The notes under the pieces are model-generated. The model was not told where the DNA came from, did not search any database, and saw nothing but the letters and a program-made list of their open reading frames with translations. 10,024 nt of DNA. Source: an uncultured Oxalobacter sp. (GTDB lineage Bacteria > Pseudomonadota > Gammaproteobacteria > Burkholderiales > Burkholderiaceae_D). The position numbers were made by a program, and so were the translations under genes. Each line of letters begins with the position of its first letter. Within the stretch, counting starts at the first letter, position 1. Location: NCBI GenBank assembly GCA_934401755.1, contig CAKRSU010000041.1:1-10024 (forward strand), given 5' to 3'. Below, one piece after another: positions 189 through 1,067 of the stretch.

Positions 189-1067
189 TTAAATCCCAAA
201 TTTATTTAACTTCTGTGCAAGGCGTTTTACCAGCTCCGCCTTCTCCAATGCTCGATAAGGCACATTTTCACGAATCCCATAACTTTTCAGTGATGTTTCC
301 AATTTATAATCCTCTTGAAAAATCTGCTCCTTTCTTATTATTGGTAAAAGATCATGTACCCGATTGGTTAAATATCCCAATCCACATTTTTCTAAATCCC
401 TATTCAAGCACTCAATGTCAAACCCAACATGATAGCCGATTAGCTCACTTTCGCCAATAAATTCACGAAATGCTGCCAACACCAGCTCTATCGGCTTTCC
501 TTCCTGCTGCAGCATGGAGCAGGTGATTCCACTCATGTTGCTAATATGCTCAGGAATACTCCCTGCATAGGCAATCAACTCATGAAAAATATTCTCTCCG
601 CCATTTTCACAACGAATAGCACCTATTTCTAATATATGATTCTGCTGAACATCCAAACCATCAGTTACAATATTGATAATGACATAGCTCTTTTTCCTTT
701 CTTTGCCTTTCCTTTTTACAGCATTTCTTGCACGATGAAATTTCGCTGCATTACTAAATCCACGTGCTAGTCCCGTTGACTCAGAAATTTCCTTGGGAAT
801 AAAAATTAATGGTAGACCATCATAATCAATAACAGCGCGCAAAGTATTCTCTGTAACGAAATCGTAGCCGAATTCATTTCTTGCTGCAAAGCACATGCTA
901 GCCTCGCCATGCCCCATAGTCTCCTTTACTCGATTCCAAAGATACTCCCTGATGCGACTATTAAAATTCCCTACATAAACACCAGTGGCAATTTCCTGCA
1001 TCCACCGTGTCAAATCTCCCCGCAAAGATTGTGGCACACTTTTCAAGGTTATAACTGTCATGGGCAT
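189..1067 (-). CDS. cas2: Cas2 fused to a DnaQ-like (DEDDh) domain, probably exonuclease-dead
   Basis: This is the Cas2 subunit of the Cas1-Cas2 spacer integrase, 292 aa against about 95 for a plain type I-E Cas2. Residues 1 to about 93 are the Cas2e ferredoxin-like core ([34 protein letters not shown]). Residues about 94-126 form a basic linker. Residues about 127-286 are a DnaQ/DEDDh exonuclease fold ([27 protein letters not shown]). Such fusions are known from type I-E systems of Streptococcus thermophilus and Megasphaera, where the domain is linked to trimming of prespacer 3' ends. Here the Exo I signature DxE reads N132-I-V134 and Exo III HxxxxD reads Y271...K276; only the Exo II aspartate D217 remains. 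Hydrolysis is therefore probably lost. The start at 1067 has GAGGT six bases upstream and overlaps cas1 by 10 bases. An alternative ATG at 1061 would form a 4-base ATGA overlap but lies farther from the ribosome site. Confidence 0.95.

Follow-up and report, generated by a model that had tools for sequence, protein, structure and literature searches.

A type I-E Cas2 fusion that keeps a DEDDh fold predicted to lack exonuclease catalysis

We describe a Cas2-DEDDh fusion protein in which four of the five catalytic residues of the exonuclease domain have been replaced and the fold has apparently been preserved. Its gene lies in a stretch of 10,024 nucleotides, referred to here as the window, which carries a complete type I-E cas operon and a CRISPR array, all on the minus strand (Table 1). 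We consider it reasonably probable that this domain is a pseudo-exonuclease that has been retained for a structural role in a type I-E integrase that still works, while host nucleases supply prespacer trimming and PAM removal in trans.

Results

A complete type I-E locus encodes the fusion

The cas genes in the window, together with 28-nt repeats recurring at a 61-nt period, make up a type I-E system, and a Cas2e-linker-DnaQ-like fusion is encoded directly beside cas1e, which is the architecture of a trimmer-integrase. The DEDDh domain scores 64 bits against PF00929 (cut-off, 24 bits). Searches of plasmid and phage records gave matches in 220 and 23 records, respectively, every one of them below 60% identity, and no relative was found in the viral contigs searched. 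Among 380 genomes of one class, five carried Cas2-DEDDh at an E value of 1e-30, with a top identity of 46%. Neither of the two 33-nt spacers between the three repeats of the window had an exact match in IMG/VR.

Upstream of cas3, at about 9952 to 10024 on the minus strand, we observed a probable 3' end of a 5S rRNA gene, which would place the locus behind an rRNA operon. In a set of 380 genomes from one class, 254 have a match to the stretch from 9690 to 10024, in almost every case to its first 60 to 110 bases, and Rfam finds 5S rRNA at the corresponding place in three other loci (L086, L087, and L088). An Rfam scan of the window itself returned no family; only the end of the 5S gene would fall inside it.

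Table 1. Features of the window (positions on the forward strand; aa, amino acids)
Feature	Position	Strand	Basis or remark
CRISPR repeat 3, at window edge	1-28	-	
CRISPR repeat 2	62-89	-	
CRISPR repeat 1, 28 nt	123-150	-	
Two 33-nt spacers	90-122 and 29-61		Repeat period 61
Short intergenic leader, 38 nt	151-188	-	GGGATCTTTTACT beside first repeat
cas2-DEDDh fusion gene, 292 aa	189-1067	-	PF09707 and PF00929 domains
Last seven codons of fusion gene	192-212	-	Conserved at synonymous sites among loci
DEDDh (DnaQ-like) domain, aa 127-290, dead as judged by residues	198-689	-	Profile, alignment, codons, structure model
K276, replaces Exo III Asp	240-242	-	AAG
Y271, replaces Exo III His	255-257	-	TAT
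D217, sole catalytic residue kept (Exo II)	417-419	-	GAC
V134, replaces Exo I Glu	666-668	-	GTA
N132, replaces Exo I Asp	672-674	-	AAT; published null site D132
Linker, aa 94-126	690-788	-	pLDDT below 50 across most of linker
Cas2e domain, aa 1-93	789-1067	-	Domain match; 81/93 sites invariant in dead clade
cas1e, 316 aa	1058-2008	-	E147, H214, D224, D227 present
cas6e	2010-2645	-	
cas5e	2647-3378	-	
cas7e	3394-4479	-	
cse2	4503-5087	-	
cse1	5122-6798	-	
cas3	6816-9647	-	HD and helicase domains

Four of five catalytic residues are replaced

In phmmer alignments, N132 and V134 of the window protein stand opposite the D and E, and Y271 and K276 opposite the H and D, of Megasphaera 8fy9 and Streptococcus thermophilus 8h18. 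Instead of an intact D-E-D-H-D active site, the window thus has N-V-D-Y-K, so that a single one of the five ligands of a DEDDh exonuclease (four acidic residues and a His) is kept, together with the profile match and the predicted fold of the family. The codons and coordinates of the four replacements are exactly those given in the preliminary description, which was also correct that three of the four could arise by one base change each (D to N, E to V, and H to Y; D to K takes two). The alignment with other fusions and solved structures that it had called for places D, E, D, H, and D in the intact relatives at the positions where the window has N, V, D, Y, and K. The D132A mutation of the Megasphaera protein (PMC10284694) abolishes prespacer trimming and also blocks full-site integration from a PAM-bearing half-site. 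From its residues, the window protein is predicted to be incapable of trimming prespacer 3' ends and the PAM.

The loss is shared by a clade of 21 proteins

The replacements were traced in an alignment of 201 rows, comprising the window, the best 120 of 608 relatives, and 80 loci. The intact DEDHD set was present in 171 rows, N-V-D-(Y/H)-K in 16 rows including the window, and (N/S)-E-(D/E)-H-D in four rows with 75 to 78% identity to the window; one further protein, P0022 (69% identity), has A-A-D-H-K. The window's clade comprises 21 proteins, the most distant of them at 69% identity to the window, and D132 is missing from every one. These 21 proteins form a single clade with a support of 100/97 when all columns are used and of 94/85 without the five catalytic columns, and the clade has a support of 99/98 in a 46-row tree.

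The tree requires two changes each at E134 and D276 and six or seven at H271. The latter position is still polymorphic, His being retained in 7 of the window's 15 nearest relatives, so that the loss of four of five residues first described holds for the window and becomes a loss of three of five in those seven. A single clade for all rows with lysine at 276 was rejected (AU P = 0.0036); D276K must therefore have arisen in parallel or have been undone in the four intermediates. Judged from the protein tree, the loss is old and stepwise, and the absence of D132 from all 21 proteins suggests that this residue was the first to go. The recent loss of trimming that had been offered as one interpretation is at odds with this pattern, since the loss of D132 is common to 21 proteins and only H271Y looks recent.

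Catalytic residues have also been lost in other lineages

After the best 120 of 1165 relatives of the Peptostreptococcus protein L079 had been added and the proteins shorter than 230 aa (L043, L075, L078, and L080) had been dropped, the alignment held 295 rows of at least 230 aa. The active site was intact in 255 of these and changed at one or more catalytic residues in 37, three rows gapped at a site being left uncounted. Besides the window clade (21 rows; FastTree support, 0.987), the 37 changed rows comprised a Peptostreptococcus clade (14 rows; support, 1.0), P0095, and P0318.

The Peptostreptococcus clade, whose named members are P. anaerobius VPI 4330, Peptostreptococcus sp. MV1, and P. 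stomatis, consists of L077 (gene at 2992 to 3882), L079 (3001 to 3900), P0241 to P0251, and P0253. D132 is found in none of the 14 rows and only P0250 has Glu in the E134 column, both with the uncertainty of gapped Exo I columns. D217 is likewise found in none (Glu in 13 rows, Lys in one), nor are H271 and D276 in any of the 13 rows with letters there. The L077 residues opposite D132 and E134 depend on the alignment (DKENF or ANENF), and the 295-row alignment was used here. These proteins are about full length and end in KVNKF wherever the C-terminal end is covered; the identity between L077 and L079 is only 47%. Two of 71 Peptostreptococcus genomes searched carry the gene, both of which were already in the set.

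P0095 is a single dead Cas2-DEDDh (N-T-V-D-D) amid intact relatives and is 49% identical to the window. By their residues, the window clade, the Peptostreptococcus clade, and P0095 are three independent catalytic losses, a count that is a lower bound for searches covering the best 120 of 608 and the best 120 of 1165 relatives. P0318 was not accepted as a further lineage, as it differs only by D276A at a distance of 0.0 from the intact P0326 and P0328 and may reflect one mutation or an error. In L080, the gene at 3001 to 3378 encodes a 125-aa Cas2e that ends in the linker, with the array 113 nt behind it; here the fused domain has been wholly lost. L075 and L078 also lack the domain and were set aside as uninformative, because their genes end with their contigs. 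In L043 (Lentilactobacillus farraginis DSM 18382), the gene starting at 3001 has an in-frame stop after 75 codons.

The dead domain evolves under relaxed but persisting constraint

Measured by tree length, the ratio of DEDDh to Cas2 change is 7.8 in the dead clade, compared to 1.7 and 2.6 in two hand-picked intact groups of 9 and 8 rows. By parsimony, the dead clade shows 14.1 DEDDh changes per Cas2 change, compared to a median of 3.45 (range, 2.41 to 10.50) in 42 intact clades. Since this ratio lies above those of all 42 intact clades, we conclude that constraint on the dead domain has been relaxed, which the preliminary description had not anticipated. The partial protein P0021 was excluded from the tree-length, invariant-site, parsimony, and core analyses; P0040 was removed from the intact rows of the tree-length and invariant-site comparisons, and the parsimony and core analyses also exclude P0249, P0095, P0318, P0040, L073, and P0321.

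None of the 21 clade rows is truncated at the C terminus: 20 rows have 288 to 294 aa, whereas P0021, a 240-aa protein from a contig of 902 bases, is missing its N-terminal part and has the C-terminal end. From the 211 to 246 amino acid changes in the clade's domain, 9.8 to 15.1 nonsense changes would be expected under neutrality, a range that varies with the method and with the truncations that the search could list; the count of zero covers the best 120 of 608 relatives, and a truncated member may exist among those ranked lower. At 45 hydrophobic-core sites, 2 of 33 changes were to nonhydrophobic residues, compared to a neutral expectation of 42% calculated from the window's codons (P = 5e-6), and the 15-row subclade had none in 10 (P = 0.004). 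The corresponding figure for the 255 intact rows was 46 of 977 changes. Overall, the core sites of the dead clade are hydrophobic in 99.6% of 899 cells, and site-wise change in the dead clade is correlated with that in the 255 intact rows (rho = 0.44 over 159 sites, the catalytic five being excluded).

In a 56-row tree, 38 domain sites had at most one change in 34 intact rows, and the majority residue of the 15-row subclade differs at four of the five catalytic sites among them but at only 3 of the 33 others (200, 220, and 245). With a stricter set of 22 invariant sites and 20 rows, 3 of 5 catalytic sites compared to 3 of 17 others were lost, a difference that is not significant (P = 0.10). 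For the Peptostreptococcus clade, the losses were 5 of 5 catalytic and 6 of 17 other sites (P = 0.018), and the core is more eroded, 20 of 69 changes being nonhydrophobic (P = 0.019).

The predicted structure of the window domain matches S. thermophilus 8h18 at 1.1 Å, with a TM score of 0.94 by target length, and the Peptostreptococcus model gives TM scores by target of 0.67 to 0.69 against the S. thermophilus DnaQ domain. The structure prediction that had been recommended thus returned the DnaQ fold and added little, the input alignment consisting mostly of intact relatives; from the AlphaFold models it follows only that these sequences can adopt such a fold. The proposal of a fold kept without catalysis is supported by a single dead clade with open frames and a preserved hydrophobic core. 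According to these protein-level tests, the domain would qualify as a pseudoenzyme that has lost catalysis by descent and whose fold is under relaxed purifying selection.

The integrase partners look functional

E147, H214, D224, and D227 of Cas1 are each present in 121 of 121 rows (the window and the best 120 of 7089), and the window thus has the intact metal site expected of a working integrase. We take these residues to be E141, H208, D218, and D221 of the E. coli protein. The window Cas1 also has H29, Y126, Q141, G148, K168, and Y171, which are named for the ruler, the PAM pocket, and the junction in Megasphaera (PMC10284694). The Cas2 part is nearly frozen, its invariant sites (Table 1) having been counted over 20 rows of the dead clade. 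Taken by their sequences, Cas1 and Cas2 look functional.

Repeat intervals of 61 nt made up 51 of 54 in three loci with dead domains, 47 of the 54 coming from L079, whose cas1 is broken, compared to 1357 of 1440 in other fused loci; L029, with its match in a run of N, was left out of these counts. The interval was 61 nt in 5 of 5 cases in L077, beside a full-length cas1, and in 2 of 2 cases in the window. Repeat spacing therefore seems independent of the fused nuclease.

In L079 (Peptostreptococcus sp. MV1), cas1 at 2302 to 3000 has an internal deletion in the metal-site region. The large array of this locus could suggest that spacers are acquired even when the trimmer is dead, a reading that we rejected because of the broken cas1; its spacers may predate the cas1 loss. 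Only one of the 48 repeats in this array (3926 to 6829) deviates within the first 26 bases. At the repeat end, GATCC is followed by T or C in 47 of the 48 repeats and by A in the remaining one. This base may thus have been brought in by the spacer, as happens in E. coli with the final base of the repeat.

The end of the gene probably doubles as leader

In 61 of 70 loci, about 11 to 40 nt separate the stop codon of cas2 from the start of the array, whose assigned position can be off by a few bases. These 70 loci with an array were obtained from 81 sequences scanned, with the window included and L029 removed by hand. In Cas2-DEDDh loci, a GGGATCTTTTA-like motif often adjoins the repeat. Across 77 sequences, synonymous codon identity showed an excess of +0.21 in the last seven codons only, peaking at K289, whereas every block upstream of codon 286 stayed between -0.02 and +0.05. 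The gene end thus probably doubles as leader DNA.

Discussion

The preliminary description had already suggested that the domain acts structurally or gauges DNA and that a host exonuclease does the trimming, and this is still the best inference that protein comparison offers. Cas1-Cas2 would capture a 23-bp duplex and measure its ends with its own ruler, as the Megasphaera complex implies (PMC10284694); we extend this to the window because its Cas1 has H29 and every one of the PAM-pocket residues. Both the PAM end and the 3' overhangs would be cut back by a host 3'-5' exonuclease that acts in trans, in keeping with the current view of E. coli type I-E. The dead domain itself would fill the cavity bounded by Cas2, the repeat DNA, and the N terminus of Cas1, most likely as a noncatalytic wedge or clamp.

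Such a job is offered by the position of the domain in Megasphaera. There, on the non-PAM side, where no trimming takes place, the domain lies close to the N terminus of Cas1 and to repeat DNA, and it is in the linear half-site complex that it occupies the cavity formed by Cas2, Cas1, and the repeat (PMC10284694). Trimming in trans is a required assumption of the model, since the D132A complex alone fails in full-site integration. Host exonucleases are expected to be able to act in trans, according to the same paper (PMC10284694). For E. coli, trimming by DnaQ and ExoT has been seen in vitro, but loss of the two together reduces the outcome in vivo by a factor of only about two, and the 3'-end nucleases have yet to be fully identified (PMC9699676). 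What the sequences show is the replacement of the residues, its age and recurrence, a constraint that is relaxed yet real, and an integrase core that looks intact; trimming in trans, the clamp role, and live adaptation are what we infer from there.

It is possible, though unlikely, that the domain is instead a dispensable and drifting remnant, with host nucleases sufficing and only the Cas2 part mattering. The DEDDh-to-Cas2 ratio exceeding that of all intact clades would fit, as would the Peptostreptococcus lineage, which went further, with a gap at Exo I and its eroded core, and L080, which has an array behind a Cas2 without any DEDDh domain. However, the absence of C-terminal truncation from the 21 rows found and an almost uniformly hydrophobic core speak against drift of this kind, and both of the larger dead lineages have remained about full length.

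Retirement of the whole adaptation module, such that the system only interferes with existing spacers and cas1-cas2 goes unused, appears distinctly improbable. It would account for the block of full-site integration by D132A in Megasphaera (PMC10284694) and for the internal deletion in L079 cas1. Nevertheless, the window encodes a full-length Cas1 that has both the metal-site and the landmark residues, the Cas2 sequence hardly varies within the clade, and in P. anaerobius L077 an even deader domain occurs together with a Cas1 of full length.

We give hardly any credence to residual nuclease activity by another chemistry: D217 is kept and four sister proteins retain E134, H271, and D276, but a single D132A mutation kills the Megasphaera homologue (PMC10284694), and no acidic residue steadily replaces the lost ligands in the three motif stretches. 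Equally little weight attaches to the idea that the frame is kept only because the gene end is CRISPR leader. The short distance from stop codon to array and the synonymous conservation of the last seven codons speak for it, whereas the lack of any excess before codon 286 leaves the other codons of the domain unexplained, and leader overlap was rejected as the cause of domain retention. Sequencing or assembly error is negligible as an explanation: three of the four changes are single-base ones, but N132, V134, and K276 recur in 15 more proteins, each representing a 90% cluster and drawn from two source collections, which rules it out.

For a domain retained for structure and served by host nucleases, a more specific function can be proposed only tentatively, and we think it rather doubtful: the dead domain may have been recruited as a 3'-end cap or clamp that, next to Cas1, binds the overhang or the repeat DNA but does not cut it, with PAM release timed by the hand-over to a host nuclease. 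Parallel D276K in two branches of the clade, beside the kept D217, would then mean that the metal was replaced by a positive side chain. If this were true, a noncatalytic role would be a repeated evolutionary outcome, as two other lineages independently reached a dead fused domain.

In the published model, trimming is the one main job of the fused domain. A natural loss of the null-mutant residue combined with a protected fold, in a system that otherwise looks intact, offers a ready separation-of-function test of a structural job, and the lineage also tests who trims without Cas4 and without an active fused nuclease. With at least three lineages affected, trimming by the fused domain seems to be dispensable in more cases than the fusion as such. 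Among the open-access papers searched, PMC10284694 was the only one with the term Cas2-DEDDh, and no title or abstract opening among the matches listed named a naturally inactive fusion.

The best solved relative is the Megasphaera NM10-related Cas1-Cas2/DEDDh (8fy9 to 8fyd; PMC10284694), a fusion of the same kind that aligns with the window over residues 1 to 290, residue 132 having the same number in both. The window Cas1 aligns with its Megasphaera counterpart along all 316 aa, with identical PAM-pocket, junction, and ruler residues. The Megasphaera active site is intact and performs trimming and PAM removal (PMC10284694), whereas in the window four of the five residues are replaced. In E. 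coli type I-E, where Cas1-Cas2 measures and host nucleases process (PMC9699676), we would expect the same mode of action as in the window, but the E. coli Cas2 chains of 94 to 104 aa have no DEDDh domain. The Peptostreptococcus Cas2-DEDDh is likewise dead by its residues and about full length; it differs from the window protein in belonging to a separate clade, in its more eroded core, and in its gap at Exo I.

The DnaQ domain of S. thermophilus Cas2-DnaQ has reportedly been found to trim overhangs. This protein, from strain DGCC 7710 (8h18, 8h2f, and 8hi1), has the same architecture as the window protein, with D/E and H/D in 8h18 where the window has N/V and Y/K.
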